Shown in pieces: positions 23,276 through 58,580 of a stretch of DNA of 64,000 nt (its first letter is position 1; each line of letters starts with the position of its first letter). Both the position numbers and the translations under genes were made by a program. The notes under the pieces were generated by a model. It did no database searches and was not told where the DNA came from. It was given only the letters and a program-made list of their open reading frames with translations. The DNA lies in NCBI GenBank assembly GCA_021292105.1, contig CM037874.1:16536615-16600614 (forward strand). Direction: 5' to 3'. This stretch comes from Anadara kagoshimensis (Eukaryota > Mollusca > Bivalvia > Arcoida > Arcidae).

Positions 23276-24879
23276 ATGCGTTACGTAGCAGCATATATGT
23301 TGGCGGTGATGGGTGGAAACGACAATCCGACAGCTAAAGACATAGAGAGGATTGTGGGATCTGTCGGGATAGAGTGTGAACCTGACAAATTAGCCATAGT
23401 ATTGAAAGAATTAAAAGGCAAAAACCTGGAAGAGCTCATACAAAAAGGTAAATGCTCTAGTTTCACAGTCGTTTCTTAACCAAGGTTTCCCTGACTTAAA
23501 TCTAGCAAAATTAAAAAATTTGAATGATTTTGTTAGTTTTCAAGATATTTATGAATTTACGATGCCCTTTTGAGAACCATTCTATTTTTATTATATTTGT
23601 AATTTAATTTTGTTGACATTTTTTATTTGTAGTACCAAAACAATTGTTAAAATTTGCCAGAGTAAAGTTAAGGAAAATAGTTAAGGGATGATTGTGAATC
23701 TGGGGCCAGTTTCACAATCATTCCTTAACTAAGGTTTACTTAAACTTAAATATGGCAAGTTTTAGCACTATTTTACCAATACAAATAAAACTTTTCAATA
23801 AAATTGTAATACAGATGTTATAAGCTTAATGTGATCTTCAAACTTACGACTTAACAATTCAAAAATAATAAAGACATAATGGTTATCAGATTTAAGTTAA
23901 GGAAAACCAGGGACCTAAAATACATATTGTGTATGAAGATATCAAAATCATTTTGTTGGCACATCCTTTGGTTGTCTCCCATTTGTCCAATCCTTATATC
24001 GTTTTCCTTTCTTTATCATCATATGCAAGACTTTATCATGACTGGCTGGATGCCCATCTTTAATCAAATCGGAGATTATTTAGGTTTTGATTCCTGCTTA
24101 GTTCATTTTCATAAACTTTCCTTTCTCTTTTGTTTAAATTATCCGATCAAAGTAAAATGAAATAGCATAAGAAACAGAACTGAGAAAGTCAGAAAGTCAG
24201 CCTATATGGCTTAGAAAAGCGCGTTGAAGATGCAACTATCGGTAGATATTAGTATAATGAAAAGGAACAGTAATACCAAGAAAGGGGTTTTTTCTATTGT
24301 AAAAGACACAAGCGGGTCTCCTAAATAATTAACATATAAGGATTTACTCTGCCAAACTTTATTTGATATTGTAGATTTAACGATCAGAATCACGTACACA
24401 ACATACTCAAATTACAAGTCCAAGTTAAAATCGCATAGTAAAATCTTTGAAAATAAAGTAAAACACGTGGACTACCACCAGGGAAGTGGATCGGGTGTCT
24501 CTTGCGTCTTATCATTAATGTCACTGTTTTTATGTAGCATGTTCATGGTTCTGACCTTTTGCCAAATAATGTTTTCTGCAATGTTCTGTAATATTCATTA
24601 GTTAAAGAAATAAAGCATGTTATTTTAGGTCAGGAAAAACTAGCAAATGCACCAGGAGCAGGAGCTGTAATTACAACGACCACAGAGGCAGTAGCAGCTG
24701 TAGAGGATAAACCTGAAGGTACGGTTAGCCCAACCCTTTACATAACACAATACAAGCATTTAAAGTCAAGTAGAACTTATGTACAGTGTCCTACAATATT
24801 CTTTTTTGCATACTTGTTAATATCTACAATGCACATATAAAATGCAAGAGATTATGCCGGGAGCCCCCTTTTATGCCAA

Positions 24880-26459: not shown

Positions 26460-27640
26460 TGAATTAACAGTAGTTGTTCTTTATAAAGATGATTGGTAGG
26501 AATCGAAGTAATAATGGTCGAACAATGTGGATTGTTTTCCTTAACAAGCACGCACGTGTTCGATGGAACTCCAGGTTGCATTCAAGCTAAGCACCACATC
26601 AGTAATACATATCACAAGAATTTCTTCCTATACAACTAGTTTGTCTTGAAGCATTTCTGTCTTTTCTATTATACAGGGCCTATTTGTTCGAAACTTGATT
26701 ATCTTAACCAATGATTAAAACAAATCCAAAACATTAATAAAAACATATCAGTACGAAATCCAAATAGTTATAGCTAACTTTTTTCAGTCATTTTAAATCA
26801 AATTGGATTGGATTGCTAAATTAGCTAAGGTTCTGAATCAAACATATTTAAGAAAAACTTCTTTTTAATCATTAGAATTTCAAAAAGCTCGTTCTCAGTG
26901 CGTATTTCATTGTAAACACAAACATACTGACCAATAGCCAAATCGCAATTCCAAAATTCAAAACTTTGAAAAATGCCAAATGAAGTTGAACACATTAACT
27001 TCCACCAGGAAAGTAAGACCAGGTGCTCTGGGAGGTATCCTGAAAATATAAAATGTGTTTAGACGATAAAGCCTGCAACAATGATATATTATTGCATTTA
27101 AATTTAAAAAAATTCTAACATATTGATCTTACAAATGACCTTATAAATCGCATAAAGTCAAGAGGATTTATCTCCCTTCTATTGCTGATAAAGACAGAGT
27201 AACGAAGATCGGTAACAAATCAAGTTACATAAAATGAAAAAAATACGCAATTAACAGTTAATCAAAATAAATGCAACAAAAAGTAATCCTCATCTCCTTT
27301 AAAATCACTGATTATAAAATCATAATATCACAAAAGTTATTAAAAAGCTTGAATATTCTTCTCTGTAAAGACCAAACTACTAGTAACCTTGAAATCGCAT
27401 TTCTCAAATTTTGATTTTGGATATATCAATTGTCGGATACATATTACAAACCAAAAATATGCATGTCGATCAGGCATATTAGTTACACACGCATAGCTAA
27501 GCTTCAACCCATTGCACAAATTTTTCCCAGTTTGAAGACGATTTTGGTTTCATAATTTTGGTCCAAGCACTACTGATGAGGAATTGTATTCTGATAAGGC
27601 CGTCTAGTGCTGTTATTTTAAAACTGGTATAATATTAAAT
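26460..27640. other. AT-rich intergenic sequence
   Basis: The only recognisable item is a retroelement tail scrap on the minus strand at about 26998-27045 (AACTTCCACCAGGAAAG, then CCAGGTGCTCTGGGAGG). No exon was seen. Confidence 0.35.
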
Positions 27641-28599: not shown

Positions 28600-29150
28600 C
28601 TTCTAAAACAACACAATGATGCAACAAGTCAATATTCAACCATTAAGGCTTACAATATCCCCGAGTTAATAATTTATTTGTAAGCATCTTGCTTCAATAT
28701 ACAGCTACCGAAGTGTAACAAGCTCTGCCATTGCATATTAAGTGTGTAACAAACAGGCCATAAGCAGGAGAAAAAGGTACATTAATACAAAGAAAAGGGA
28801 ATTTGACAATAGAAAATTTGAAGTCATCATGTGTAGTTTTTGATTGGTGCCATGATTGAGATATAAGTCGAAATATGAAGCCGAATTTGAAGAATCAGTT
28901 ACATCTGTTTAGTTCAATCTCACTGGGATAGATGTCATTCACATAGTCTACAAGTATAGTATGATTAAAAGAAAGAACGAATGTATTCTATATACCTATA
29001 TATTGAGTTTTGGCGACAGTCTTCACTCCAGATTAAACAAGATTGTGCATACTTCTGTTCATACGAATACTGAAAGCAAGCATTGGTGCACAGTTTGTGC
29101 CCGTTGGTGAACCGAGTTTGGTTGAATTCTATTGCCAAAATATTTTTTTG
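28600..29150 (-). pseudogene. Decayed reverse transcriptase of the tail-bearing retroelement family
   Basis: Minus-strand pieces in order, across several frames, are: GSPTGTNCAPML (polymerase motif B) near 29100; YSYEQKYAQS; YRYIE, where YRYIDD is expected; DYVNDIYPSE near 28940; DDFKFSIVKFPFLC near 28810; PAYGLFVTHLI; and KMLTNKLLTRGYCKP near 28680. The order matches a reverse-transcriptase family abundant in bivalve genomes, possibly Penelope-like. Multiple frameshifts and stops and loss of the catalytic Asp pair make it dead. The fragments at 32025-32095, 33115-33230 and 57620-57920 belong to the same family. Confidence 0.8.
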
Positions 29151-29668
29151 ATGGTATCCTCAGTATAATGAGTTTGGAGTCTGTATGGTGCGTGACAAAA
29201 TAACCAGTTTCCTCGTTCAGAACTAGGTACTTGTATCTTGGCTTACAGTTTTTTTTACTACAAGTGAATAATTTGTTTTAGAAATGCTGTCAATTTACAA
29301 TGAAAGATAGTTGTGCAAAGTGTACAGAAATCAAAGGGTGTTAATACTTTTTACACAAGATGAAGTATTAAGATTTTATTTTCAGGCAGATCTTTAGAAT
29401 GTTTTAGAATTCACATTTGATTGAATGAATAGACTTTATCTGAATAAGTCTGATAATCATTTTGATGATTGTCAAAATTTGTGTTTGAATTACTGATAAG
29501 ATTTAGTAGAAAAAGCTGCTTACATACCTTTTATGGAGTTTTGTAAAATTTAGGAATCCAATACAAGTATGGAAGGTCAGGTCTTCCTCTTTAAGATAGA
29601 TACCGACTGTGACTCACAAACTCCAACGTGGTTGGGTAGAATATTATGTTTGGTAACATTAGTTTATA

Positions 29669-29846: not shown

Positions 29847-29930
29847 TATAGATATAGGATTATCCTATACTATCCAAACAGAAGTCTATTGAGAAATTCG
29901 AGATATAATCTTAAACAAAAAAGGTTTTAT

Positions 29931-30165
29931 TGTCGCCATCATGGTATTGTTGATAAGTTTGATGTCTCTGTGTCTAGGATTGCCCTAGATATTTTGGTGT
30001 CCTATAGTTCCATGTTTCTTTTACTCAATTTTGATTAAATACCCGGCGGGTACAGCTAGCTAAACAGGAGATGCTAACCCAGTCCCTAACTTGTCAGTTT
30101 CAAACTTTTTACTTTGCTTCTGGACTCTGATTTGGACATTAGTATGTTTTTGATTATATGTATTG
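29931..30165 (+). mobile_element. Retroelement 3' end: last 35 reverse-transcriptase codons plus tail
   Basis: An open frame, CRHHGIVDKFDVSVSRIALD then ILVSYSSM..., runs without interruption from 29931 to a TAA at 30036-30038. The non-coding tail follows (CCGGCGGGTACAGCTAGCTA, ACAGGAGATGCTAACCC, then TTTTTACTTTGCTTCTGGA). This copy shows most clearly that the dispersed tail is the 3' end of the reverse-transcriptase family. It is 5'-truncated. Confidence 0.8.
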
Positions 30166-31750
30166 TGTTGATCTTTGGTTCGTTTTGAACTTTTTTCAGT
30201 TACGATAATTTTGTTCTATAATCAAACATATATTACACACAAGTAGAAATTTAAATTTCTTTCATCTCGTATATCTAAAATATTTTATTACTACAACGAA
30301 ACAAAACAAATTGAAGCCACAAATACATTAAATCAAATAAAACATGATCAATACTTCAGGCTATCTAGTAAGATTAAAAGAAATATTTATTTCCTTTTGA
30401 TATTCGTAGGCGAAATTTAATTCCCAGAGGTCACCATTTAGACATCAATGTAATTCTAAGACTTCTGAAGATGTATCATACCATGTTTTGGTTATTTTCT
30501 GTGTAATAACTAAATATAGGCAAACATCATTAACTTGTCCGATTGACCTTTAATATAAATATTTATGATGGAAGAATACATTTATCTATAGGTAAAATAT
30601 ATGTCTATTTGTCTATATACTGAGGACACTTTTCATAAGCATTGCTGATTTGTTATGATTGCAAAACCTGATACTACCTATGAGTTGCATGGATCCTCCT
30701 ACATGAATGTTTCTTATGTTAAGGCTAAATGGACAGGTCAATGCTGTTTTCATATACCGCCAATGGTTTGTTTTTTGTTTTTGTTTTTATCATACGTTGT
30801 GTTAGTTTAAATGATTTCTAAATGTCATTCCATATACATGAGAATAATAAAATACGTATAAAGGCTATCAACAAGAACAGGAAATGAATTTCCTTACAAT
30901 TATGACAGCATGATATGAGATTGAAAATAGTGCATTGATTTAAAAAAGTAAACAGTTGTTATTTTCCTTAACTAAGCTCATTAAATTAAAAAAGAGTTTG
31001 GAATATATTGCAATATTCAAGATTTAAACCATATTAAATATTTTTATTGCGTTGCATTGATCGATATAATACCATGTGATTATATCCTCTTATTGTGGTC
31101 ACATCAAAGATCACATACTTGCTATTCCCGATTTCAAGAACAATACATGTTGTTTTAATAGTAACTATGATGTCTCATAAAGTATGATTAATTAATCCTA
31201 AATATTTGTCTAATTTAAAACAGTGAGAGTTTAGGTTCAAATTGTAATCAAAAGAATATGCAATTATTATCAACTTTAATTAAAGTTAAAATTAAAACTT
31301 GAATAATATATATTAAAAAATAAAATGAAATTATGGATTGAATATATAAATTTTGAAAGTATATATACGCCGTTCATAAGTTTGTATCAAATCTCTTCAT
31401 ATCTTGAAGGTAAAGCAGTTCTTCTATTGATGGTTCATGAACTCATGTGTCAACACGAGTTGAAAACTAAAATGTCTTTTGTTGAAAACACGTCTAAAGT
31501 AAGACTTGCACAAGTAGGGATACTCTGAACACGTGACCGCATGTGTATTAATACATATCGTAACTTATACAAAACAACATAAAACGCAATGTTTTAGAAC
31601 ATACTAGTAACTGTATCTACAATTTGACCAAGGATACTTGATTCCTATTCGCATATTATTTTGTTTCGAGGAATATAACATTCCAATAGGCATATGATAT
31701 ACTAGTATACCATATATGTTTACTAAAGAGAATTGTTGGGTTCTGAGCAA
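30166..31750. other. AT-rich intergenic sequence
   Basis: No exon, inverted-repeat ends or repeat family could be identified. Confidence 0.35.
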
Positions 31751-32095: not shown

Positions 32096-32879
32096 AATTC
32101 ATGTGAACCCTAATGAATTGTTATCATTTTGACTATGCAATTATGGTATACACAACTCTAATGAGACTATTTTCCGACGATTTAGTACTCCTTTGTCCTA
32201 GAATGTTTTTTAGATATTAAATTACCAAAATCAGGAATAACATTTGAAATGAATCCTCACAGTCTCCAGGTCTCTTGCATATGAAATTTGATATTGTATT
32301 AATTATTTTGGTAAGATAAGTATTTATATAATTACGAACAATTGTTTTCTCACTGATGTTTTGTTTTCACTTTCGTATGCACTGGATACTAAAACGTGTA
32401 TTTTTTCTGGGGACAATACCACAACAGTTAATCAAATAAATATCAGATTTCTATTTGCAAGAGGCTGTAAGGATTCATCTTGGTAAGGTTTTTTGGTTAA
32501 AGGATAATGGATTTCCCGGAATATGGTAATGTTCGAGTTTTTATACCATAACTTGGTGGTCAAAACACGTTCAAATCGTAATTTTGGTTCATATGACTTT
32601 TAAAAGCTTCACGATGTCGAATATTGTAACTGAAATATAATCCATGTATTAATATACTTTGTAACTGAAGTGTGTATTCAGAAAGAAGAGATACATTATG
32701 ATTGTGTAAAATGAGAACTATTAGATTTAATTCGTTTTTTATGAGAGGAATAAGTTATGTTAAATGTACTCATAACCTCTACTTAGATACTACGCATTTC
32801 AATAAAACATAAAACATTAAACATACTACGTATCTCGTTTTCATACTCTATGGGGGGTAGTGATTGTTTCATATGAAAA

Positions 32880-33230
32880 ACAGACATACTAATCCATGTC
32901 CGAATCACAGACCCAGAAGGAAAGTAAAAACTTACAAGCTACGTTAAGCACGTGAACTTCCACCAGGAAGGGTAAGCTCCTCCTGTCCATTAGCTGGGCC
33001 ACACCCGTCACGTGTATAACCAAAATTGAGTTAAATGAACATGGAAATGTTGAAAGTCAAATATATCCAGGGCCAGACACTGAGACATCAAACTTATCAA
33101 CAATACTGTCTTGGCGGCCATAAAGCTTTTTAGGGGGTGGCTGATAAGCCTAGACCTGCAATAGCAGTCTGTCAACATTTTATTTGTAAGCAGGTTTCTT
33201 CGTTGTATAAATTAGCCTTGAAATTTTAAT
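32880..33230 (-). mobile_element. Retroelement 3' end: reverse-transcriptase C-terminus plus tail (minus)
   Basis: On the minus strand, LLTNKMLTDCYCRSRLISHP and LKSFMAAKT are encoded near 33115-33215. The GTTGATAAGTTTGATGTCTC segment follows, then the non-coding tail down to 32880 with GTGACGGGTGTGGCCCAGCT and CCTGGTGGAAGTTCACGTGC. It lies 310 bp from, and is inverted relative to, the tail that seeds the 49-bp array. Confidence 0.75.
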
Positions 33231-33562: not shown

Positions 33563-33709
33563 AATTTGACGCCCAATAGTTTCATGTTTCTTTCATTTTG
33601 AATTTGGATTGCACAAGTGGCGGGTGTAGCTTGCTAGCACTTCCGGAGCACCGCCCATTTCCCCGCGGAACTTCACGTATTTTTTAGTTACTTAGTTTAC
33701 AAGTTCAAT
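33563..33709 (+). mobile_element. Retroelement 3' tail directly abutting the 49-bp array
   Basis: TTGACGCCCAATAGTTTCAT, then AAGTGGCGGGTGTAGCTTGC, CTTCCGGAGCACCGCCC and GCGGAACTTCACGT follow the order of the other tails. Where they have GTTTTTACTTTGCTTCTGG, this copy has GTTTTTCCTTTGCTTTGGG at 33710 and runs straight into the tandem array. The tail is therefore the left boundary of the satellite. Confidence 0.85.
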
Positions 33710-36700
33710 GTTTTTCCTTTGCTTTGGGATTGTGATCTGGACATTGATTGGTATATCTGTTTTTACTTTGCTTTTGGATTGTAATTTGAACATTGATTGG
33801 TATATCTGTTTTCCCTTTGCTTTTGGATTGTGATCTAGACATTGATTGGTATATCTGTTTTCCCTTTGCTTTTGGATTGTGATTTGAACATTGATTGGTA
33901 TCTGTTTTTACTTTGCTTTGGGATTGTGATTTGAACATTGATTGGTATATCTGTTTTCCCTTTGCTTTTGGATTGTGATTTGAACATTGATTGGTATATC
34001 TGTTTTTCCTTTCCTTTTGGATTGTGATCTGGACATTGATTGGTATATCTGTTTTTCCTTTGCTTTGGGATTGTGATCTGGACATTGATTGGTATATCTG
34101 CTTTTTTCTTTGCTTTTGGATTGTGATTTGAACATTGATTGGTATATCTGTGTTTCCTTTGCTTTTGGATTGTGATCTAGACATTGATTGGTATATCTGT
34201 TTTTACTTTGCTTTTGGATTGTGATCTGGACATTCATTGGTATATCTGTTTTTACTTTGCTTTTGGATTGTGATTTGAACATTGATTGGTATATCTGCTT
34301 TTCCTTTGCTTTGGGATTGTGATCTAGACATTGATTGGTATATCTGTTTTTACTTTGCTTTTGGATTGTGATTTAAACATTGATTGGTATATCTGTGTTT
34401 CCTTTGCTTTTGGATTGTGATCTGGACATTGATTGGTATATCTGTTTTTACTTTGCTTTTGGATTGTGATCTAGACATTGATTGGTATATCTGTTTTCCC
34501 TTTGCTTTTGGATTGTGATTTGAACATTGATTGGTATATCTGTTTTTCCTTTGCTTTTGGATTGTGATCTGGACATTGATTTGTATATCTGCTTTTTTCT
34601 TTGCTTTGGGATTGTGATTTGAACATTGATTGGTATATATGTTTTTCCTTTGCTTTTGGATTGTGATCTGGACATTGATTGGTATATCTGCTTTTTTCTT
34701 TGCTTTTGGATTGTGATCTGGACATTAATTGGTATATCTGCTTTTCCTTTGCTTTTGGATTGTGATTTGAACATTGATTGGTATATCTGCTTTTTTCTTT
34801 GCTTTTGGATTGTGATCTGACATTGATTGGTATATCTGCTTTTTTCTTTGCTTTGGATTGTGATTTGAACATTGATTGGTATATCTGTTTTTCCTTTGCT
34901 TTTGGATTGTGATTTGAACATTGATTGGTATATCTGCTTTTTTCTTTGCTTTGGATTGTGATCTGGACATTGATTGGTATATCTGCTTTTTTCTTTGCTT
35001 TTGGATTGTGATTTGAACATTGATTGGTATATCTGTTTTTCCTTTGCTTTTGTATTGTGATCTAGACATTGATTGGTATATGTTTTCCCTTTGTTTTTGG
35101 ATTGTGATTTGAACATTGATTGGTATATCTGTTTTTCCTTTGCTTTTGGATTGTGATTTGAACAATGATTGATATATCTCCTTTTCCTTTGCTTTGGGAT
35201 TGTGATTTGAACATTGATTAGTATATCTGTTTTTCCTTTGCTTTTGGATTGTGATCTAGACATTGATTGGTATATCTGTTTTTCCTTTGCTTTTGGATTG
35301 TGATCTGGACATTGATTGGTATATCTGCTTTTTTTTTTTGCTTTGGGATTGTGATTTGAACATTGATTGGTATATCTGTTTTTCCTTTCCTTTTGGATTG
35401 TGATCTGGACATTGATTGGTATATCTGTTTTTCCTTTACTTTTGGATTGTGATCTAGACATTGATTGGTATATCTGTTTTTTCTTTGCTTTTGGATTGTG
35501 ATCTGGACATTGATTGGTATATCTGCTTTTTTTTTGCTTTGGGATTGTGATTTGAACATTGATTGGTATATCTGTTTTTCCTTTCCTTTTGGATTGTGAT
35601 CTAGACATTGATTGGTATATCTGTTTTTCCTTTACTTTGGGATTGTGATCTAGACATTGATTGGTATATCTGTTTTTCCTTTGCTTTTGGATTGTGATCT
35701 GGACATTGATTGGTATATCTGCTTTTTTTTTTGCTTTGGGATTGTGATTTGAACATTGATTGGTATATCTGTTTTTCCTTTCCTTTTGGATTGTGATTTG
35801 AACATTGATTGGTATATCTGTTTTTCCTTTCCTTTTGGATTGTGATTTGAACATTGATTGGTATATCTGTTTTTCCTTTCCTTTTGGATTGTGATCTGGA
35901 CATTGATTGGTATATCTATTTTTCCTTTCCTTTTGGATTGTGATTTGAACATTGATTGGTATATCTGTTTTTTCTTTGCTTTTGGATTGTGATTTGAACA
36001 TTGATTGGTATCTGCTTTTCCTTTGCTTTGGGATTGTGATCTAGACATTGATTGGTATATCTGTTTTTCCTTTGCTTTGGGATTGTGATTTGAACATTGA
36101 TTCGTATATCTGTTTTTCCTTTTTTTTAGGATTGTGATCTGGACATTGATTGGTATATCTGCTTTTCCTTTGCTTTGGGATTGTAATTTGAACATTGATT
36201 GGTATATCTGTTATTCCTTTGCTTTTGGATTGTGATTTGAACATTGATTGGTATATCTGTTATTCCTTTGCTTTTGGATTGTGATTTGAACATTGATTGG
36301 TATATCTGTTTTTCCTTTACTTTTGGATTGTGATTTGAACATTGATTGGTATATCTGCTTTTCCTTTGCTTTTGGATTGTGATCTAGACATTGATTAGTA
36401 TATCTGCTTTTTTCTTTGCTTTTGGATTGTGATCTGGACATTAATTGGTATATCTGTTTTTACTTTGCTTTTGGATTGTGATTTGAACATTGATTGGTAT
36501 ATCTGTTTTCCCTTTGCTTTTGGATGGTGATTTGAACATTTATTGGTATATCTGTTTTTTTCTTTGCTTTTGGATTGTGATTTGAACATTGATTGGTATA
36601 TCTGCTGTTCCTTTGCTTTTGGATTGTGATTTGAACATTGATTGGTATATCTCCTTTTCCTTTGCTTTTGGATTGTGATTTGAACATTGATTGGTATATC

Positions 36701-37289
36701 TGCTTTTTTCTTTGCTTTTGGATTGTGATTTGAACATTGATTGGTATATCTGCTGTTCCTTTGCTTTTGGATTGTGATCTGGACATTAATTGGTATATCT
36801 GCTTTTCCTTTGCTTTTGGATTGTGATTTGAACATTGATTGGTATATCTGCTTTTGTCTTTGCTTTTGGATTGTGATTTGAACATTGATTGGTATATCTG
36901 TTTTTTTCGTTGCTTTTGGATTGTGATTTGAACATTGATTGGTATATCTGCTTTTCCTTTGCTTTTGGATTGTGATTTGAACATTGATTGGTATATCTGC
37001 TTTTGTCTTTGCTTTTGGATTGTGATTTGAACATTGATTGGTATGTCTGCTTTTTTTCTTTGCTTTTGGATTGTGATTTGAACATTGATTGGTATCTGTT
37101 TTTCCTTTGCTTTTGGATTGTGATCTAGACATTGATTGGTATATCTGCTTTTTCCTTTGCTTTTGGATTGTGATTTGAACATTGATTGGTATCTGTTTTT
37201 ACTTTGCTTTTGGATTGTGATCTGGACATTGATTGGTATCTGTTTTTCCTTTGCTTTTGGATTGTGATTTCAACATTGATTGGTATCTG

Positions 37290-40200
37290 TTTTTACTTTG
37301 CTTTTGGATTGTGATCTGGACATTGATTGGTATCTGTTTTTACTTTGCTTTTGGATTGTGATTTGAACATTGATTGGTATCTGTTTTTACTTTGCTTTTG
37401 GATTGTGATCTAGACATTGATTGGTATATCTGTTTTTACGTACTTTGCTTTTGGATTGTGATTTGAACATTGATTGGTATATCTGTTTTTCCTTTGCTTT
37501 TGGATTGTGATTTGAACACTGATTGGTATATCTGCTTTTTTCTTTGCTTTTGGATTGTGATTTGAACATTGATTGGTATATCTGTTTTTACTTTGCTTTT
37601 TGATTGTGATCTGGACATTGATTAGTATCTGTTTTTACTTTGCTTTTGGATTGTGATCTGGACATTGATTGGTATATCTGTTTTATTTTGCATTTAGATT
37701 ATGATTTGGACATTAATTGGTATATCTGTTTTTCCTTTGCTTTTGGATTGTGATCTGGACATTGATTGGTATATCTGCTTTTTTCTTTGCTTTTGGATTG
37801 TTATCTGGACATTGATTGGTATATCTGCTTTTTTCTTTGCTTTTGGATTGTGATCTGGACATTGATTGGTATATCTGTTTTTCCTTTGCTTTTGGATTTT
37901 GATTTGAACATTGATTGGTATCTGTTTTTACTTTGCTTTTGGATTGTGATCTGGACATTGATTGGTATCTGTTTTTACTTTGCTTTTGGATTGTGATTTG
38001 AACATTGTTTGGTATATCTGTTTTTACTTTGCTTTTGGATTGTGATCTGGACATTGATTGGTATATCTGTTTTTACTTTGCTTTTGGATTGTGATTTGAA
38101 CATTGATTGTTATATCTGTTTTTACTTTGCTTTTGGATTGTGATCTAGACATTGATTGGTATATCTGTTTTTACTTTGCTTTTTTGGATTGTGATTTGAA
38201 CATTGATTAGTATCTGTTTTTACTTTGCTTTTGGATCGTGATTTGAACATTGATTGGTATATCTGTTTTTACTTTGCTTTTGGATTGTGATTTGAACATT
38301 GATTGGTATATCTGTTTTTACTTTGCTTTTGGATTGTGATTTGAACATTGATTGGTATATCTGTTTTTCCTTTGCTTTTGGATTGTGATCTGGACATTGA
38401 TTGGTATATCTGTGTTTCCTTTGCTTTTGGATTGTGATTTGAACATTGATTGGTATATCTGTTTTTTCTTTGCTTTTGGATTGTGATTTGAACATTGATT
38501 GGTATCTGTTTTTACTTTGCTTTTGGATTGTGATCTGGACATTGATTGGTATATCTGTGTTTCCTTTGCTTTTGGATTGATTTGAACATTGATTGGTATA
38601 TCTGTTTTTACTTTGCTTTTGGATTGTGATCTGGACATTGATTAGTATCTGTTTTTACTTTGCTTTTGGATTGTGATCTGGGCATTGATTGGTATATCTG
38701 TGTTTCCTTTGCTTTTGGATTGTGATCTAGACATTGATTGGTATATCTGTTTTTACTTTGCTTTTGGATTGTGATTTGAACATTGATTGGTATATCTGTG
38801 TTTCCTTTGCTTTTGGATTGTGATCTGGACATTGATTGGTATATCTGTGTTTCCTTTGCTTTTGGATTGTGATCTAGACATTGATTGGTATATCTGTGTT
38901 TCCTTTACTTTTGGATTGTGATTTGAACATTGATTGGTATATCTGTGTTTCCTTTGCTTTTGGATTGTGATCTGGACATTGATTGGTATATCTGTGTTTC
39001 CTTTGCTTTTGGATTGTGATCTAGACATTGATTGGTATATCTGTGTTTCCTTTGCTTTTGGATTGTGATTTGAACATTGATTGGTATATCTGTGTTTCCT
39101 TTGCTTTTGGATTGTGATCTGGACATTGATTGGTATATCTGTGTTTCCTTTGCTTTTGGATTGTGATCTAGACATTGATTGGTATATCTGTGTTTCCTTT
39201 GCTTTTGGATTGTGATCTAGACATTGATTGGTATATCTGTGTTTCCTTTGCTTTTGGATTGTGATCTAGACATTGATTGGTATATCTGTGTTTCCTTTAC
39301 TTTTGGATTGTGATTTGAACATTGATTGGTATATCTGTGTTTCCTTTGCTTTTGGATTGTGATCTGGACATTGATTGGTATATCTGTGTTTCCTTTGCTT
39401 TTGGATTGTGATCTAGACATTGATTGGTATATCTGTTTTTACTTTGCTTTTGGATTGTGATCTGGACATTGATTGGTATATCTGTGTTTCCTTTGCTTTT
39501 GGATTGTGATCTAGACATTGATTGGTATATCTGTGTTTCCTTTACTTTTGGATTGTGATTTGAACATTGATTGGTATATCTGTGTTTCCTTTGCTTTTGG
39601 ATTGTGATCTGGACATTGATTGGTATATCTGTGTTTCCTTTGCTTTTGGATTGTGATCTAGACATTGATTGGTATATCTGTTTTTACTTTGCTTTTGGAT
39701 TGTGATCTGGACATTGATTGGTATATCTGTTTTTACTTTGCTTTTGGATTGTGATTTGAACATTGATTGGTATATCTGTGTTTCCTTTGCTTTTGGATTG
39801 TGATCTGGACATTGATTGGTATATCTGTTTTTACTTTGCTTTTGGATTGTGATTTAAACATTGATTGGTATATCTGTTTTTACTTTGCTTTTGGATTGTG
39901 ATCTGGACATTGATTAGTATCTGTTTTTACTTTGCTTTTGGATTGTGATCTGGACATTGATTGGTATATCTGTTTTATTTTGCATTTAGATTATGATTTG
40001 GACATTAATTGGTATATCTGTTTTTCCTTTGCTTTTGGATTGTGATTTGAACATTGATTGGTATATCTTCTTTTTTCTTTGCTTTTGGATTGTGATTTTA
40101 ACATTGATTGGTATATCTGGTTTTACTTTGCTTTTGGATTGTGATCTGGACATTGATTGGTATATCTGTTTTTACTTTGCTTTTGGATTGTGATCTAGAC

Positions 40201-43200
40201 ATTGATTAGTATCTGTTTTTACTTTGCTTTTGGATTGTGATCTGGACATTGATTGGTATATCTGTTTTTACTTTGCTTTTGGATTGTGATCTGGACATTG
40301 ATTGGTATATCTGTTTTTACTTTGCTTTTGGATTGTGATCTAGACATTGATTAGTATCTGTTTTTACTTTGCTTTTGGATTGTGATCTAGACATTGATTG
40401 GTATATCTGTTTTTACTTTGCTTTTGGATTGTGATCTAGACATTGATTGGTATATCTGTTTTTACTTTGCTTTTGGATTGTGATCTGGACATTGATTAGT
40501 ATATCTGTTTTTACTTTGCTTTTGGATTGTGATCTAGACATTGATTGGTATATCTGTTTTTTCTTTGCTTTTGGATTGTGATCTGGACATTGATTGGTAT
40601 ATCTGTTTTTTCTTTGCTTTTGGATTGTGATCTAGACATTGATTAGTATCTGTTTTTACTTTGCTTTTGGATTGTGATCTAGACATTGATTGGTATATCT
40701 GTTTTTACTTTGCTTTTGGATTGTGATTTGAACATTGATTAGTATATCTGTGTTTCCTTTGCTTTTGGATTGTGATCTAGACATTGATTGGTATATCTAT
40801 TTTTCCTTTGCTTTTGGATTGTGATCTAGACATTGATTGGTATATCTATTTTTACTTTGCTTTTGGATTGTGATCTGGACATTGATTGGTATATCTGTTT
40901 TTACTTTGCTTTTGGATTGTGATTTGAACATTGATTAGTATATCTGTTTTTACTTTGCTTTGGGATTGTGATCTGGACATTGATTGGTATCTGTTTTTAC
41001 TTTGCTTTTGGATTGTGATCTGGACATTAATTGGTATATCTGTTTTCCCTTTGTTTTTGGATTGTGATTTGAACATTGATTGGTATATCTGCTTTTCCTT
41101 TGCTTTTGGATTGTGATCTGGACATTGATTGGTATCTGTTTTTACTTTGCTTTTGGATTGTGATCTGGACATTGATTGGTATCTGTTTTTACTTTGCTTT
41201 TGGATTGTGATTTGAACATTGATTGGTATCTGTTTTTACTTTGCTTTTGGATTGTGATCTAGACATTGATTGGTATATCTGTTTTTACGTACTTTGCTTT
41301 TGGATTGTGATTTGAACATTGATTGGTATATCTGTTTTTCCTTTGCTTTTGGATTGTGATTTGAACACTGATTGGTATATCTGCTTTTTTCTTTGCTTTT
41401 GGATTGTGATTTGAACATTGATTGGTATATCTGTTTTTACTTTGCTTTTGGATTGTGATCTGGACATTGATTAGTATCTGTTTTTACTTTGCTTTTGGAT
41501 TGTGATCTGGACATTGATTGGTATATCTGTTTTATTTTGCATTTAGATTATGATTTGGACATTAATTGGTATATCTGTTTTTCCTTTGCTTTTGGATTGT
41601 GATCTGGACATTGATTGGTATATCTGCTTTTTTCTTTGCTTTTGGATTGTTATCTGGACATTGATTGGTATATCTGCTTTTTTCTTTGCTTTTGGATTGT
41701 GATCTAGACATTGATTGGTATATCTGTTTTTCCTTTGCTTTTGGATTTTGATTTGAACATTGATTGGTATCTGTTTTTACTTTGCTTTTGGATTGTGATC
41801 TGGACATTGATTGGTATCTGTTTTTACTTTGCTTTTGGATTGTGATTTGAACATTGTTTGGTATATCTGTTTTTACTTTGCTTTTGGATTGTGATCTGGA
41901 CATTGATTGGTATATCTGTTTTTACTTTGCTTTTGGATTGTGATTTGAACATTGATTGTTATATCTGTTTTTACTTTGCTTTTGGATTGTGATCTAGACA
42001 TTGATTGGTATATCTGTTTTTACTTTGCTTTTGGATTGTGATTTGAACATTGATTAGTATCTGTTTTTACTTTGCTTTTGGATCGTGATTTGAACATTGA
42101 TTGGTATATCTATTTTTACTTTGCTTTTGGATTGTGATTTTAACATTGATTGGTATATCTGTTTTTACTTTGCTTTTGGATTGTGATTTGAACATTGATT
42201 GGTATATCTGTGTTTCCTTTGCTTTTGGATTGTGATCTGGACATTGATTGGTATATCTGTGTTTCCTTTGCTTTTGGATTGTGATCTGAACATTGATTGG
42301 TATATCTGTTTTTTTCGTTGCTTTGGGATTGTGATTTGAACATTGATTGGTATCTGTTTTTACTTTGCTTTTGGATTGTGATTTGAACATTGATTGGTAT
42401 ATCTGTCTTTACTTTGCTTTTGGATTGTGATTTGAACATTGATCGGTATATCTGTTTTTACTTTGCTTTTGGATTGTGATCTGGACATTGATTAGTATCT
42501 GTTTTTACTTTGCTTTTGGATTGTGATCTGGGCATTGATTGGTATATCTGTGTTTCCTTTGCTTTTGGATTGTGATCTAGACATTGATTGGTATATCTGT
42601 TTTTACTTTGCTTTTGGATTGTGATTTGAACATTGATTGGTATATCTGTGTTTCCTTTGCTTTTGGATTGTGATCTGGACATTGATTGGTATATCTGTGT
42701 TTCCTTTGCTTTTGGATTGTGATCTAGACATTGATTGGTATATCTGTGTTTCCTTTACTTTTGGATTGTGATTTGAACATTGATTGGTATATCTGTGTTT
42801 CCTTTGCTTTTGGATTGTGATCTGGACATTGATTGGTATATCTGTGTTTCCTTTGCTTTTGGATTGTGATCTAGACATTGATTGGTATATCTGTGTTTCC
42901 TTTGCTTTTGGATTGTGATTTGAACATTGATTGGTATATCTGTGTTTCCTTTGCTTTTGGATTGTGATCTGGACATTGATTGGTATATCTGTGTTTCCTT
43001 TGCTTTTGGATTGTGATCTAGACATTGATTGGTATATCTGTGTTTCCTTTGCTTTTGGATTGTGATCTAGACATTGATTGGTATATCTGTGTTTCCTTTG
43101 CTTTTGGATTGTGATCTAGACATTGATTGGTATATCTGTGTTTCCTTTACTTTTGGATTGTGATTTGAACATTGATTGGTATATCTGTGTTTCCTTTGCT

Positions 43201-44890
43201 TTTGGATTGTGATCTGGACATTGATTGGTATATCTGTGTTTCCTTTGCTTTTGGATTGTGATCTAGACATTGATTGGTATATCTGTTTTTACTTTGCTTT
43301 TGGATTGTGATCTGGACATTGATTGGTATATCTGTGTTTCCTTTGCTTTTGGATTGTGATCTAGACATTGATTGGTATATCTGTGTTTCCTTTACTTTTG
43401 GATTGTGATTTGAACATTGATTGGTATATCTGTGTTTCCTTTGCTTTTGGATTGTGATCTGGACATTGATTGGTATATCTGTGTTTCCTTTGCTTTTGGA
43501 TTGTGATCTAGACATTGATTGGTATATCTGTTTTTACTTTGCTTTTGGATTGTGATCTGGACATTGATTGGTATATCTGTTTTTACTTTGCTTTGGATTG
43601 TGATTTGAACATTGATTGGTATATCTGTGTTTCCTTTGCTTTTGGATTGTGATCTGGACATTGATTGGTATATCTGTTTTTACTTTGCTTTTGGATTGTG
43701 ATTTAAACATTGATTGGTATATCTGTTTTTACTTTGCTTTTGGATTGTGATCTGGACATTGATTAGTATCTGTTTTTACTTTGCTTTTGGATTGTGATCT
43801 GGACATTGATTGGTATATCTGTTTTATTTTGCATTTAGATTATGATTTGGACATTAATTGGTATATCTGTTTTTCCTTTGCTTTTGGATTGTGATTTGAA
43901 CATTGATTGGTATATCTTCTTTTTTCTTTGCTTTTGGATTGTGATTTTAACATTGATTGGTATATCTGTTTTTACTTTGCTTTTGGATTGTGATCTGGAC
44001 ATTGATTGGTATATCTGTTTTTACTTTGCTTTTGGATTGTGATCTAGACATTGATTAGTATCTGTTTTTACTTTGCTTTTGGATTGTGATCTGGACATTG
44101 ATTGGTATATCTGTTTTTACTTTGCTTTTGGATTGTGATCTGGACATTGATTGGTATATCTGTTTTTACTTTGCTTTTGGATTGTGATCTAGACATTGAT
44201 TAGTATCTGTTTTTACTTTGCTTTTGGATTGTGATCTAGACATTGATTGGTATATCTGTTTTTACTTTGCTTTTGGATTGTGATCTAGACATTGATTGGT
44301 ATATCTGTTTTTATTTTGCTTTTGGATTGTGATCTGGACATTGATTAGTATATCTGTTTTTACTTTGCTTTTGGATTGTGATCTAGACATTGATTGGTAT
44401 ATCTGTTTTTTCTTTGCTTTTGGATTGTGATCTGGACATTGATTGGTATATCTGTTTTTTCTTTGCTTTTGGATTGTGATCTAGACATTGATTAGTATCT
44501 GTTTTTACTTTGCTTTTGGATTGTGATCTAGACATTGATTGGTATATCTATTTTTCCTTTGCTTTTGGATTGTGATCTAGACATTGATTGGTATATCTAT
44601 TTTTACTTTGCTTTTGGATTGTGATCTAGACATTGATTGGTATATCTGTTTTTACTTTGCTTTTGGATTGTGATTTGAACATTGATTAGTATATCTGTTT
44701 TTACTTTGCTTTGGGATTGTGATCTGGACATTGATTGGTATCTGTTTTTACTTTGCTTTTGGATTGTGATCTGGACATTAATTGGTATATCTGTTTTCCC
44801 TTTGTTTTTGGATTGTGATTTGAACATTGATTGGTATATCTGCTTTTCCTTTGCTTTTGGATTGTGATCTAGACATTGATTGGTATATCT
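37290..44890 (+). repeat. Tandem ~3.85-kb duplication within the 49-bp array
   Basis: Rare variants recur with a constant offset of 3849-3850: TTTTTACGTACTTTGC at 37434 and 41283; TTTTATTTTGCATTTAGATT near 37681 and 41530, and again near 39973 and 43822. Towards the right the offset falls to 3751, which is a loss of two 49-bp units in the second copy. The first copy is about 37290-41140 and the second 41140-44890. Confidence 0.85.
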
Positions 44891-45810
44891 GCTTTTTTCT
44901 TTGCTTTTGGATTGTGATCTGGACATTGATTGGTATATCTGTTTTTACTTTGCTTTTGGATTGTGATTTGAACATTGATTGGTATATCTGTTTTCCCTTT
45001 GCTTTTGGATGGTGATTTGAACATTTATTGGTATATCTGTTTTTTTCTTTGCTTTTGGATTGTGATTTGAACATTGATTGGTATATCTGCTGTTCCTTTG
45101 CTTTTGGATTGTGATTTGAACATTGATTGGTATATCTGCTTTTCCTTTGCTTTTGGATTGTGATTTGAACATTGATTGGTATATCTGCTTTTTTCTTTGC
45201 TTTTGGATTGTGATTTGAACATTGATTGGTATATCTGCTGTTCCTTTGCTTTTGGATTGTGATCTGGACATTAATTGGTATATCTGCTTTTCCTTTTCTT
45301 TTGGATTGTGATTTGAACATTGATTGGTATATCTGCTTTTTTCTTTGCTTTTGGATTGTGATTTGAACATTGATTGGTATATCTGTTTTTTTCGTTGCTT
45401 TTGGATTGTGATTTGAACATTGATTGGTATATCTGCTTTTCCTTTGCTTTTGGATTGTGATTTGAACATTGATTGGTATATCTGCTTTTTCTTTGCATTT
45501 GGATTGTGATTTGAACATTGATTGGTATCTGTTTTTCCTTTGCTTTTGGATTGTGATCTAGACATTGATTGGTATATCTGCTTTTTCCTTTGCTTTTGAA
45601 TTGTGATTTGAACATTGATTGGTATCTGTTTTTACTTTGCTTTTGGATTGTGATCTGGACATTGATTGGTATCTGTTTTTCCTTTGCTTTTGGATTGTGA
45701 TTTCAACATTGATTGGTATCTGTTTTTACTTTGCTTTTGGATTGTGATCTGGACATTGATTGGTATCTGTTTTTACTTTGCTTTTGGATTGTGATTTGAA
45801 CATTGATTGG
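44890..45810 (+). repeat. Second copy of the 36420-37380 block inside the array
   Basis: The private variants GGATGGTGATTTGAACATTT (36522 and 45008) and GATTTCAACATTGATTGG (37269 and 45701) recur in the same order. The flanking blocks therefore read B-A-A-B: 36.4-37.4, 37.3-41.1, 41.1-44.9 and 44.9-45.8 kb. Confidence 0.75.
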
Positions 45811-48755
45811 TATATCTGCTTTTACTTTGCTTTTGGATTGTGATCTGGACATTGATTGGTGTATCTGTTTTCCCTTTCCTTTTGGATTGTGATCTGGACA
45901 TTAATTGGTATATCTGCTTTTACTTTGCTTTTGGATTGTGATCTGGACATTGATTGGTATATCTGCTTTTACTTTGCTTTTGGATTGTGATTTGAACATT
46001 GATTGGTATATCTGTTTTTACTTTGCTTTTGGATTGTGATTTGAACATTGATTGGTATATCTGCTTTTACTTTGCTTTTGGATTGTGATCTGGACATTGA
46101 TTGGTATATCTGTTTTTACTTTGCTTTTGGATCCTGATTTGAACATTGATTGGTATATCTGTTTTTACTTTGCTTTTGGATTGTGATCTGGACATTGATT
46201 GGTATCTGTTTTTACTTTGCTTTTGGATTGTGATTTGAACATTGATTGGTATCTGTGTTTACTTTGCTTTTGGATTGTGATCTAGACATTGATTAGTATC
46301 TGCTTTTTCCTTTGCTTTTGGATTGTGATTTGAACATTGATTGGTATCTGTTTTTACTTTGCTTTTGGATTGTGATCTGGACATTGATTGGTATCTGTTT
46401 TTACTTTGCTTTTGGATTGTGATTTGAACATTGATTAGTATCTGTTTTTACTTTGCTTTTGGATTGTGATCTGGACATTGATTGGTATATCTGTTTTTAC
46501 TTTGCTTTTGGATTGTGATTTGAACATTGATTGGTATATCTGTTTTTACTTTGCTTTGGGATCGTGATTTGAACATTGATTGGTATATCTATTTTTACTT
46601 TGCTTTTGGATTGTGATCTCGACATTGATTGGTATATCTGTTTTTACTTTGCTTTTGGATTGTGATTTGAACATTGATTGGTATATCTGTTTTTACTTTG
46701 CTTTTGGATTGTGATCTGGACATTGATTAGTATCTGTTTTTACTTTGCTTTTGGATTGTGATCTGGACATTGATTGGTATATCTGTGTTTCCTTTGCTTT
46801 TGGATTGTGACCTGGACATTGATTGGTATATCTGTGTTTCCTTTGCCTTTGGATTGTGATCTAGACATTGATTGGTATATCTGTTTTTACTTTGCTTTTG
46901 GATTGTGATTTGAACATTGATTGGTATATCTGTGTTTCCTTTGCTTTTGGATTGTGATCTGGACATTGATTGGTATATCTGTTTTTACTTTGCTTTTGGA
47001 TTGTGATTTAAACATTGATTGGTATATCTGTTTTTACTTTGCTTTTGGATTGTGATCTGGACATTGATTAGTATCTGTTTTTACTTTGCTTTTGGATTGT
47101 GATCTGGACATTGATTGGTATATCTGTTTTATTTTGCATTTAGATTATGATTTGGACATTAATTGGTATATCTGTTTTTCCTTTGCTTTTGGATTGTGAT
47201 TTGAACATTGATTGGTATATCTTCTTTTTTCTTTGCTTTTGGATTGTGATTTTAACATTGATTGGTATATCTGTTTTTACTTTGCTTTTGGATTGTGATC
47301 TAGACATTGATTAGTATCTGTTTTTACTTTGCTTTTGGATTGTGATCTAGACATTGATTGGTATATGTGTTTTTACTTTGCTTTTGGATTGTGATTTGAA
47401 CATTGATTAGTATATCTGTGTTTCCTTTGCTTTTGGATTGTGATCTAGACATTGATTGGTATATATTTTTCCTTTGCTTTTGGATTGTGATCTAGACATT
47501 GATTGGTATATCTGTTTTTACTTTGCTTTTGGATTGTGATTTGAACATTGATTAGTATATCTGTTTTACTTTGCTTTTGGATTGTGATCTAGACATTGAT
47601 TGGTATATCTGTTTTTACTTTGCTTTTGGATTGTGATTTGAACATTGATTAGTATATCTGTTTTTACTTTGCTTTTGGATTGTGATCTAGACATTGATTG
47701 GTATATCTGTTTTTACTTTGCTTTTGGATTGTGATTTGAACATTGATTAGTATATCTGTTTTTACTTTGCTTTGGGATTGTGATCTGGACATTGATTAGT
47801 ATCTGTTTTTACTTTGCTTTTGGATTGTGATTTGAACATTGATTAGTATATCTGTTTTTACTTTGCTTTTGGATTGTGATCTGGACATTGATTGGTATCT
47901 GTTTTTACTTTGCTTTTGGATTGTGATCTGGACATTAATTGGTATATCTGTTTTTCCTTTGCTTTTGGATTGTGATCTGGACATTAATTGGTATATCTGT
48001 TTTTCCTTTGCTTTTGGATTGTGATCTGGACATTGATTGGTATATCTGTTTTTACTTTGCTTTTGGATTGTGATTTGAACATTGATTAGTATATCTGTTT
48101 TTACTTTGCTTTGGGATTGTGATCTGGACATTGATTGGTATCTGTTTTTACTTTGCTTTTGGATTGTGATCTGGACATTAATTGGTATATCTGTTTTTCC
48201 TTTGCTTTTGGATTGTGATCTGGACATTAATTGGTATATCTGTTTTTCCTTTGCTTTTGGATTGTGATCTGGACATTGATTGGTATATCTGTTTTTACTT
48301 TGCTTTTGGATTGTGATTTGAACATTGATTAGTATATCTGTGTTTCCTTTGCTTTTGGATTGTGATCTAGACATTGATTGGTATATCTATTTTTCCTTTG
48401 CTTTTGGATTGTGATCTAGACATTGATTGGTATATCTGTTTTTACTTTGCTTTTGGATTGTGATTTGAACATTGATTAGTATATCTGTTTTTACTTTGCT
48501 TTTGGATTGTGATCTGGACATTGATTGGTATATCTATTTTTCCTTTGCTTTTGGATTGTGATCTGGACATTGATTGGTATATCTGTTTTTACTTTGCTTT
48601 TGGATTGTGATCTGGACATTGATTGGTATATCTGTTTTTACTTTGCTTTTGGATTGTGATCTGGACATTGATTGGTATCTGTTTTTACTTTGCTTTTAGA
48701 TTGTGATCTGGACATTGATTGGTATATCTGTTTTATTTTGCATATCTGTTTTTAT

Positions 48756-49440
48756 TTACATAAATAGTGTTTTAACTTTGATTTAATATATAACAGTATA
48801 ATCAATAAATGTAAAGTTTTTAACAATTACATGGATAAGAGCACAGAAATTTTAGCTTCTTACTTTTTGATCGATCTGTTGTTATATTTACCTTACATAA
48901 ATATGGACATACTAACAATATAATGTTGAAAGAAAAAGGAAAACTGATATAGCGTGATATGAGTGAGAAAAATCGATAACTTTTTCATCCAAATAAAAAT
49001 AAATTAAACATAGTGATACATTTGTTCTACTGTTAAGAGGTATAAATCAAAAGCAAACCAATGTAAAATGTCATTCATAAATTATTATACATAAGACGTT
49101 TCATACAATTACAATTTGAAAATAGGCACACAATTACTTTGTTGCAAACATCATTCAGCTTAAAAATGAGTACTTTTCAGCTAATGTGATTTTTTATCTT
49201 GAAAAATATTTTTCATATTTTATATTTTTCTATAAAATAAATCGAAACCAAAATTTTTTAACATAAACAAATTGGTTGCATACATTTAGATCATTAAGAT
49301 GGTATATCACATTTAAATGCTGCAAAAGCTTATTTTAACTTTATGAATAAAAATTGAAATGATATTTGTAATATAAATCTATGAAAAATATAAGTTTATA
49401 TAGGTCTTTACGGATGGCAGTTTATTAAACTGTATTTCTC
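48756..49440. other. AT-rich sequence right of the satellite
   Basis: Very AT-rich with no element ends or exon detected. The array breaks off in a unit reading TTTTATTTTGCATATCTG, with no matching right-hand tail. Confidence 0.35.
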
Positions 49441-49619: not shown

Positions 49620-49826
49620 TAGTTCCATGTTTCTTTCACACAATTTTGATTACACACGTGGCGGGTGTATCTAGCTAAACAGGAGGTGCTTACCCTTCCG
49701 GAGCACCCGGACTCACTTCCCTGGTGGATGTTCACGTGTCTAACCTAACTTGTCAGTTCCAAAGTTTTTACTTTGCTTCTGGATTGTGATTCGGACATGG
49801 ATTAGTATGTTTGTTTTTGATTAAAA
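49620..49826 (+). mobile_element. Retroelement 3' tail (plus), well preserved
   Basis: It starts at TAGTTCCATGTTTCTTTCAC and includes ACACGTGGCGGGTGTATC, GGAGGTGCTTACCCTTCCGG and GTTTTTACTTTGCTTCTGG at 49764. GTTTTTGATT lies exactly 49 bases later at 49813. It retains the single-copy state of the segment amplified in the satellite. Confidence 0.85.
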
Positions 49827-57299: not shown

Positions 57300-57345
57300 A
57301 AACTTATCAGTTTCAAAGTTTTTACTTTGCCTCAGGATTTAGTGT
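57300..57345 (+). mobile_element. Retroelement tail scrap
   Basis: AACTTATCAGTTTCAAAGTT followed by TTTACTTTGCCTCAGGATTT matches the last part of the tail. It lies just upstream of a reverse-transcriptase remnant in the same orientation. Confidence 0.55.
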
Positions 57346-57599
57346 TTAGTATCCGGCTTAGATGATGGTGCCTTGCACTATCACGTCAATCAAAATCAAA
57401 CTCATCTTGATAAAGGCATTGACAGTTCGGCTATGTTATATTCCTTGTCTCCACATCTCTCAAGTTAAAATCGCCGAAAGCGGTATGGTTAAATTGATGA
57501 AAAATACTACTATTGCTTTTTTTTTCGAGATCACCACACAAACAAAATATGGAAGTTTAATGCGTTTTAAGACCAATGGCCCAATAAAATCTTATATAT

Positions 57600-57920
57600 T
57601 ACTGGCTAGGCATATTCAACTTGCAACATACACAAAAAAGAAGACTTGCTAAATTATTGAACACCACATATAGATATATAGCTGGCATTCTATCTCTTAA
57701 TATTCCTATGTTTGAAAATTGTCTGAATTTCGTCTACACTTGCGAGCTTGAAATAAAAGATACAATTGATTCTTCAAGTTTGGCTTCATATTTTGACTTA
57801 TTTGTCGATTATAACAACAACTTTTCTTTTCTATGCAACAGTATACCTGCTTTCTTGCTTATGATGTATTTGTTTCACAATTAACAGGCTATCGTGAGGC
57901 TTCTTCAAAACAAGGACAAG
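57600..57920 (+). pseudogene. Decayed reverse transcriptase, same family
   Basis: One open frame reads QKRRLAKLLNTTYRYIAGIL, then SLNIPMFENCLNF, CELEIKDTIDSSSLASYFDL and FVDYN. A frame change then gives AYDVFVSQLTGYREAS. The catalytic YxDD position reads YIAG, so both active-site Asp residues are gone. The segment corresponds to the pieces at 28600-29150 and is independently decayed. Confidence 0.8.
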
Positions 57921-58439: not shown

Positions 58440-58580
58440 CGTCCTATATCTGTGGGTGTAGCTAGGTAAACAGGAGGTGCTGAAAGTTTACATGATTGTT
58501 TACTTACCAGTTTTAAAATATTGCTTTTGTTTTAGATTTGTGACTTAAATATGGACTGGTATATTTGTTTTTGGTGTCAA
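58440..58580 (+). mobile_element. Older retroelement 3' tail
   Basis: TGTGGGTGTAGCTAGGTAAA, CAGGAGGTGCT, then TTGCTTTTGTTTTAGATTTG and GACTGGTATATTTGTTTTTG follow the tail order with heavy divergence and a deletion after GGTGCT. Confidence 0.6.

Follow-up and report, generated by a model that had tools for sequence, protein, structure and literature searches.

The 64,000-nucleotide stretch of the Anadara kagoshimensis genome analysed here (the window; GCA_021292105.1, contig CM037874.1, positions 16,536,615 to 16,600,614 of the forward strand) contains a long tandem array with a unit of about 49 bp, dispersed copies of a short sequence that forms the 3' tail of a retroelement, and decayed pieces of the reverse transcriptase (RT) of that element (Table 1). 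A reading made from the sequence only had proposed that the array is a satellite of about 15 kb that grew out of the retroelement tail, and this was borne out by Tandem Repeats Finder (TRF), by cyclic alignment and by the junction between the tail and the first unit. TRF reported the array at 33709-48741 with a period of 49, 308.3 copies and 91% matches; cyclic alignment likewise resolved 308 units, of which 221 are 49 bp long and 48 are 47 bp long, the next commonest length. The mean pairwise identity among the units is 0.913, and there are 117 distinct sequences among the 308.

The array is joined to the element's own sequence, and its unit is homologous to a defined part of that dispersed element. 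On the left, a degraded tail body (33563-33708) that can be aligned with the window's other tails gives way directly to unit 1 at the 33708/33709 junction, just as the sequence-only reading had described. The nhmmer match at this founding tail spans 33542-33740 (E value, E, 4.9e-51, this copy being part of the model); the body is 68% identical to the tail at 49.6 kb (pairwise blastn) and agrees with the young copies at 94 of 125 positions. The unit is the 3' terminal segment of the tail, matching the young copies at 42 of 49 positions. When the unit plus the next hexamer was aligned with the tails at 49620-49826 and 8431-8610, 48 of 55 positions matched without gaps (score 75 in each case), as against 29-30 for the best of 500 single-base shuffles. 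Older tails gave lower unit scores, and for four of the ten aligned (t27m, t24m, t573 and t589) the score of the unit alone was at or near the shuffle maximum. The monomer had been said to match the tail end base order for base order; the order holds, and the array consensus differs from the young tails at 7 of the 49 positions. At six of these seven (17, 30, 37, 42, 47 and 49; not 29) the letter found in the array is present in at least one other tail of the window. Within the 64-kb window no unrelated repeat closer to the unit was found, and the five other window arrays (units of 20, 32, 38, 144 and 145 bp) matched nothing else in the window outside their immediate surroundings.

Table 1. 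The array, the tail copies and the reverse transcriptase remnants of the window, with the evidence for each
Feature	Coordinates	Strand	Evidence or remark
Tandem array, 308 head-to-tail units of ~49 bp	33709..48741	+	TRF and cyclic decomposition
Degraded retroelement tail body, founding insertion of the array	33563..33708	+	nhmmer, pairwise blastn
First unit	33709..33757	+	joined straight to the tail body; 47/49 identical to the array consensus
Incomplete last unit and array end	48729..48760	+	TGTTTTATTTTGC / ATATCTGTTTTTATTTAC, then flank without unit homology
Internal tandem duplication, 3.85 kb (79 units)	~37250..44850	+	self-comparison of the array
Young single-unit tail t49	49620..49826	+	nhmmer; GTTTTT at 49764 and 49813
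Young single-unit tail t8	8429..8610	+	nhmmer; GTTTTT repeat, 49-bp spacing
Tail copy without its 3' part, the unit included in the loss	7057..7226	-	nhmmer, alignment
RT C-terminal codons, then single-unit tail	29919..30169	+	RT codons 29919-29996, E 1e-5; tail nhmmer E 1.6e-51 (model includes this tail)
RT C-terminal remnant and single-unit tail, opposite in orientation to the array	32872..33211	-	nhmmer E 4.2e-34
Old degraded tail copy	26910..27035	-	nhmmer E 9e-15
Old degraded tail copy	24388..24497	-	nhmmer E 1.4e-8
Weak tail fragment, left out of further analysis	22068..22147	-	nhmmer E 4.2e-6
Tail fragment	57301..57339	+	nhmmer E 5e-7
Old degraded tail copy	58452..58578	+	array-like states at unit positions 17, 30, 42, 47
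Old degraded tail copy	58940..59156	+	nhmmer E 2.4e-19
Decayed RT fragment	28655..29422	-	tblastn E 2e-26
Decayed RT fragment	57588..57907	+	tblastn E 1e-14; downstream piece E 4e-12

In the young unamplified copies the 49-bp segment is framed by a pair of GTTTTT hexamers spaced 49 bp apart, with the second at the 3' end of the element, and both the period and the phase of the array equal this hexamer spacing. A short direct repeat is thus present at both ends of the unit in copies that carry it once, with a spacing equal to the period, as in the model of Haber and Louis (see below). The sequence-only reading had pointed to this exact spacing in the copies at 8431-8610 and 49620-49826 and was right in both cases; in the minus-strand copy t33m (32872-33131) the spacing is 50 bp because of one inserted base. 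Of the 12,707 position pairs 20-150 bp apart in t8 (182 bp), the GTTTTT pair is the only one from which a direct repeat of 6 bp or more starts. In t49 the pair is among 4 of 15,982 that start such a match (three distinct repeats), and in t33m it is one of four such starts. As a background, recurrence of a hexamer 49 bp further on was counted at 13 of 33,000 in 1-33 kb. Relatives of t49 in its own genome numbered 39 at 96-98% identity, and the 40 own-genome tail matches scored (one being that of the window) end at query positions 200-207, a few bases past GTTTTT; because they stop just after the second hexamer, this hexamer marks the element end. Among 43 perfect 3' ends, from 40 loci, GTTTTT recurs upstream at a distance of exactly 49 bp in 24.

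The remaining tails of the window indicate the kind of element from which the segment came. With nhmmer we found 12 tail matches outside the array, the tail leading into the array being counted, in agreement with the earlier estimate of about ten more; several are fragments, and four are seeds of the model itself. It had also been noted that the tail follows the last RT codons, and residues encoded at 29919-29996 do match RT proteins. In the minus-strand copy next to the array, RT pieces were found at 33131-33075 (E 0.018) and, weakly, at 33211-33140 (E 2.3). A query with an RT of the putative Penelope-like type gave 7,999 proteins at E ≤0.001 among 8,000 candidates scored, and the RT remnants of the window were located by aligning the best 120 of these. 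Of the 48 single-tail loci fetched from the genome (L002-L009, one of which is the window's own copy, and L030-L069), 26 had an RT match somewhere in the fetched stretch; in 24 of the 47 with a recognised unit, RT coding on the unit's strand stops no more than 600 bp before the unit, the commonest distance being 130 bp. The RT pieces are of many lengths (e.g. 294 aa at 67% identity and E 3e-143 in L044, 29 aa in L033), as expected of 5' truncation. The RT is putatively of the Penelope type; an RT upstream of the tail with variable 5' truncation fits such an element and would equally fit several RT families. The Pfam RVT_1 match to the element RT lies below its cut-off, a search of solved structures (PDB) with this RT gave no meaningful relative, and the AlphaFold model of one family member had a predicted local distance difference test score (pLDDT) of 46, too poor for a fold search. 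The Rfam scan of the window, where only tails and fragments are present, gave no match at the gathering score and no ribozyme; nor was a hammerhead ribozyme found at E ≤5 in 24-34 kb, which has little bearing on full elements since only tails and fragments lie there. Among viral contigs the element pattern had 0 matches, and a single isolated match in prokaryote genome contigs (L001) was taken as chance.

Two observations concern the tail copies themselves. They are repeatedly broken or deleted at or near an inverted repeat, GGTGCT...AGCACC, in the tail hairpin region (7057, 30080, 33000 and 58481). A defined short element starting at KFYGRHH, suggested by three tail copies, was dropped, as RT homology may extend upstream in one of them (weakly) and as the RT pieces of the genome copies differ in length.

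We searched the window's own assembly (1.115 Gb in 36 contigs, with the window at C18:16,536,615) for the junction between one unit and the next and for the 3' end of the element. The junction gave 21,330 matches with up to 3 mismatches, those of the window array included, and the 3' end pattern gave 51,255 with up to 3 mismatches, some of which are possibly unit junctions; the reversed controls gave 0 in both cases. Exact junctions among the matches listed (C1, C2 and part of C3) formed, as counted by eye, about 22 clusters in C1 (51.8 Mb) and about 10 in C2 (65.7 Mb). A tail body of the young subfamily followed by unit 1 and unit 2 was found at 68 places (18 exact and 50 with one mismatch) on 16 contigs, again by eye; among the 50 is one that terminates in AATTTG, possibly a single unit, and a small number with private variants may be copies of the same insertion. 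Matches at two or three mismatches (702 in all) were not used, as they include single-unit tails followed by GATTTG.

The usual state of a young copy was judged from the first 40 loci of the 100 exact 3' ends listed, all of which lie in C1; unit number was ignored in drawing them, and the sample is biased towards young copies. A recognisable unit stood at the 3' end in 39 of the 40, and none of these 39 tails carries a 49-bp tandem; one of them, L050, has a tandem of another period (see below). The dispersed copies sampled, with perfect 3' ends on this one contig, thus usually carry the segment once. A single unit is the usual inserted state of the young copies sampled, and the concern that the unit had been repeated in the ancestral tail of all copies found nothing to sustain it among these 39.

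We then have 22 multi-unit loci besides the window, 12 from the first 20 exact junctions listed and 10 picked by hand, mostly from clusters. They hold 2 to 79 units, and the tail body adjoins most, not all, of them. Together with the window the loci form a series of 2, 3, 5, 6, 10, 18, 31, 36, 69, 75, 79 and 308 units, so that the genome-wide check proposed earlier, for other tails with 2-5 units, when run in part returned tails with 2, 3, 5, 6, 10 or more. In 22 of the 23 arrays, the window array included, identity between units is higher within the locus than between loci, and there are 16 different consensus units among the 23. Most of the arrays examined are local products with locus-specific unit variants, and the window array is one of many amplifications rather than a single origin. 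Its consensus is nearest to two arrays of an older subfamily, L078 and L081 (45/49), and matches the young-subfamily arrays at 40-43 of 49 positions. The young tails of the window are therefore sisters of the founder. Ancestor, seed and product had been thought visible together within 25 kb; the derivation of array from unit and of unit from tail stands, as does the hexamer frame, but the unamplified copies quoted as ancestors are sisters from the younger subfamily.

Evidence that arrays change after insertion came from four pairs of loci. L021 and L076 have 3 and 10 units, and their 3' flanks agree at 98.4% over 245 bp and, after a shift, at 97.3% over 777 bp, with 94.1% over 341 bp on the 5' side. 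L073 and L074 have 79 and 31 units and share a 3' flank at 96.2% over 917 bp, only 58 bp being available on the 5' side; over the first four and last four listed units, the two loci show three differences in total. L071 and L072 have 75 and 69 units, with flanks at 95.1% over 1,186 bp (5') and 93.2% over 1,319 bp (3'), and L029 and L079 have 3 units each, with 98.8% over 1,302 bp (3') and 96.6% over 206 bp (5'). As the shared 3' flank runs beyond the element end, each pair most likely goes back to one insertion, copied by segmental duplication or present as unmerged haplotypes, provided that the flanks are single-copy. Unit number differs between the two copies in three of the four pairs, so that arrays change length in place. 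Two further loci show in-place unit change inside single arrays: a 6-bp insertion is common to units 2-5 of L077 and is not in unit 1, and derived changes occur in most interior units of L026 and not in unit 2 or the last unit.

The window array carries the marks of the same process on a larger scale. The two copies of the 3.85-kb duplication are 99-100% identical in most 100-bp windows when a one-base shift of the offset is allowed, a run of 23 consecutive identical units occurs at 38603 and again at 42453, and shorter internal copies lie at offsets of 8.5, 7.2 and 3.3 kb; this pattern is the one expected of repeated unequal exchange. Homogenisation is lower in the first two blocks of 28 units (17/28 and 16/28 units identical to another unit) than in the middle blocks (up to 27/28), but the last block (23/28) is not lowered in this way. 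Long open frames of up to 530 aa run along the minus strand of the array at 34448-36040; with a unit length not divisible by three, they do not point to a coding role. No sign of a function for the array was found, and it is most likely a by-product of the tail sequence.

We consider it well supported, at a probability of roughly 0.85, that the array is a satellite grown from the retroelement tail, i.e. that the 49-bp end segment flanked by GTTTTT has become tandem at many loci, seeded by the repeat and then extended by unequal exchange. The retroelement has left very many copies with a common 3' tail; in some of these the direct repeat of 6-7 bp would have acted as a mispairing site, by slippage or by unequal pairing at GTTTTT, to give the first doubling; and later growth would have taken place by unequal exchange inside the array, in its interior. 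At the window locus, with its 308 units and the 3.85-kb tandem duplication, the process went furthest among the loci examined.

Several observations weigh against this account. The hexamer is short and T-rich, and of the same 43 perfect 3' ends 7 have GTTTTT at another spacing (41-60 bp) and 12 have none in the interval of 36-60 bp. At L050 the tail carries a tandem with a period of 108 bp, which joins the 3' end to another internal site, so the hexamer is not the sole route. No target-site duplication above chance was found; the best candidate is 7 bp long, and 25% of random pairs do at least as well. At its edges the window array is no more tail-like than inside, five fixed differences being present in nearly all units, the first and last included, and no copy of the window insertion with fewer units was found, so that the history of this locus is inferred from other loci. 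As for independence, the consensus of seven young arrays is simply the plain young unit, which is uninformative, L078 fails the comparison of identity within and between loci and L081 passes it narrowly (0.860 vs 0.850), and 8 of the 23 arrays make up the four probable same-insertion pairs, which leaves no more than 19 independent cases. The shared upstream stretch is short in three of these pairs (341, 58 and 206 bp, the piece nearest the array). In L050 itself, at 1361-1837 of the fetched locus (C1, ~4.765 Mb), the junction in the 108-bp units is between GATTA, the 3' end, and TTACC, an internal site.

The age of the copies was compared by the identity of their tail bodies. The median was 0.941 for single tails (n=38) and 0.861 for multi-unit loci (n=13; P 0.01), a comparison that was not even-handed, as the two samples were drawn by different exact patterns and long arrays were likelier to be drawn; it also left out 8 of 21 multi-unit loci with short bodies, as well as L025, and among the single tails L064 (no recognised unit) and L069 (body too short). 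Among the multi-unit loci unit number was not significantly related to body divergence (rho -0.45, P 0.12). Taken at face value, the difference would suggest growth with age, but we put no weight on it.

The alternative that deserves most attention concerns the first doubling. The tandem could start at insertion, with the RT slipping on the tail RNA or jumping to the RNA 3' end, so that copies are born with 2-3 units and exchange between DNA copies lengthens them later. We regard this as possible, if distinctly less likely than a later origin: the repeat frame ends exactly at the element 3' end, the 108-bp tandem of L050 likewise joins the 3' end to an internal site, and four loci (L019, L029, L079 and L080) have 2-3 similar units beside little-diverged bodies (0.92-0.96 identical to t49). 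The RT of an anole Penelope element, moreover, starts internally near the template 3' end (PMC11167929). Not one of the 39 tails scored had two 49-bp units, but a frequency of a few percent would easily be missed; the unit-number differences in three of the four pairs also speak for change after insertion, but bear on later growth and not on the first doubling, and the age trend, with its uneven sampling, leans the same way. An extension of the same idea, which we hold to be rather doubtful, is that the 49-bp terminal module would be the site at which the RT starts and that the flanking repeat would lead to the module being copied more than once during insertion. If this were true, a satellite seed would be built into every insertion, and a large proportion of the genome's young satellites would descend from the priming signal of one retroelement.

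The other explanations do less well. That the length of the array or its internal duplications are assembly artefacts is unlikely: the members of each same-insertion pair are separated by 0.2-0.8 Mb and may represent unmerged haplotypes, and the 3.85-kb copies are nearly identical, but the 117 distinct units give an assembler landmarks, haplotype pairs would still show a change in length of one insertion, and arrays exist whatever their exact length. Spread of a ready-made array by retrotransposition of a master element with a multi-unit tail would account for the many dispersed loci with several units and for the consensus common to seven young arrays, yet it is very unlikely given the diversity of consensus units, the higher identity within loci in 22 of 23 arrays and the single-unit state of the sampled tails. 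Capture of a pre-existing satellite by the element, which then carried it as its tail, has a parallel of a kind in the Helitron-linked satellites known in an oyster (PMC8268682) and is the least probable course of all, since decayed window tails that reach the 3' end have unit homology at the same place, the array sits inside tail sequence on its left with a consensus within the range of tail units, and arrays occur in each of two subfamilies.

Other features of the window lie apart from this history. Further long tandem arrays occupy 12670-14306 (145 bp), 18823-20164 (32 bp), 51407-53305 (144 bp) and 53720-56530 (38 bp); the word TAGCGGGAA of the 38-bp array occurs once per orientation at 50775 and 50980, about 3 kb before that array, and is possibly a remnant of its source. 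An 88-bp unit at 1222-1389 is present in 1.9 tandem copies that are 100% identical (TRF). Just upstream of the young tail t49, an inverted self-match of about 119 bp (79%) at 49431-49549 resembles a miniature inverted-repeat transposon. A DDE_3 transposase fragment lies at 60916-61242 (Pfam E 2.8e-8), and an exon-like fragment of a 60S acidic ribosomal protein at 10514-10828 (Pfam PF00428, E 2.8e-6).

How satellites begin is usually worked out backwards from finished arrays. In this genome, tens of thousands of matches to the 3' end of one element stand beside a graded series of unit numbers, which allows the rates of satellite birth, its triggers and its patterns of growth to be counted, and the role of the short flanking repeat becomes testable by comparing tails with and without an intact hexamer. 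Among the titles and beginnings of abstracts listed in a literature search, mostly of papers open without subscription, no report of a Penelope-type tail as the source of a satellite was found. The 3' untranslated regions of plant long terminal repeat (LTR) retrotransposons, which are hypervariable, are reportedly a source of satellites (Macas 2009, cited in PMC12628747); the seed there, as here, is a 3' untranslated region, in a different class of element.

Satellites derived from transposable elements (TEs) are well known (review PMC12628747), and the comparisons that follow draw on the accessible parts of the papers cited. In a described mode of minisatellite birth, a segment flanked by direct repeats of 5-10 bp duplicates and then expands (Haber and Louis 1998; Taylor and Breden 2000, per PMC3389668). 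The segment described here is flanked in the same way, and the incomplete terminal unit corresponds to the Taylor and Breden form; the difference is that here the segment forms the 3' terminus of a highly abundant retroelement, and the same birth recurs at many loci in consequence. Human TE-derived tandem repeats, Alu minisatellites among them, resemble the present arrays in that short direct repeats within the TE frame some of the units, and older TEs have more units (PMC3389668; Jurka and Gentles cited there); the means given for Alu are ~2.3-2.4 units, and flanking direct repeats are given for only 300 of 7,276 cases (PMC3389668), whereas the arrays here reach from tens to 308 units, all from one fixed segment. 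The PcH-Sat satellite of limpets is pericentromeric and comes from the Nin-SINE, a short interspersed element (SINE) of which about 118 bp is in the unit (PMC11121367), and is thus likewise a mollusc satellite derived largely from the 3' part of a retroposon; a series from single-unit to multi-unit copies is present here and is not described for PcH-Sat in the accessible part of that paper. In the Pacific oyster, satellites linked to Helitrons are scattered over the genome as repeats inside rolling-circle DNA transposons (PMC8268682), so that both bivalve genomes have scattered TE-linked satellites, but those described here would grow in place at the end of a retroelement. The mechanism is of a known kind, combining minisatellite birth at direct repeats with the derivation of satellites from TEs, while it is unusual how often it has started within one genome, and the size series is unusual too.

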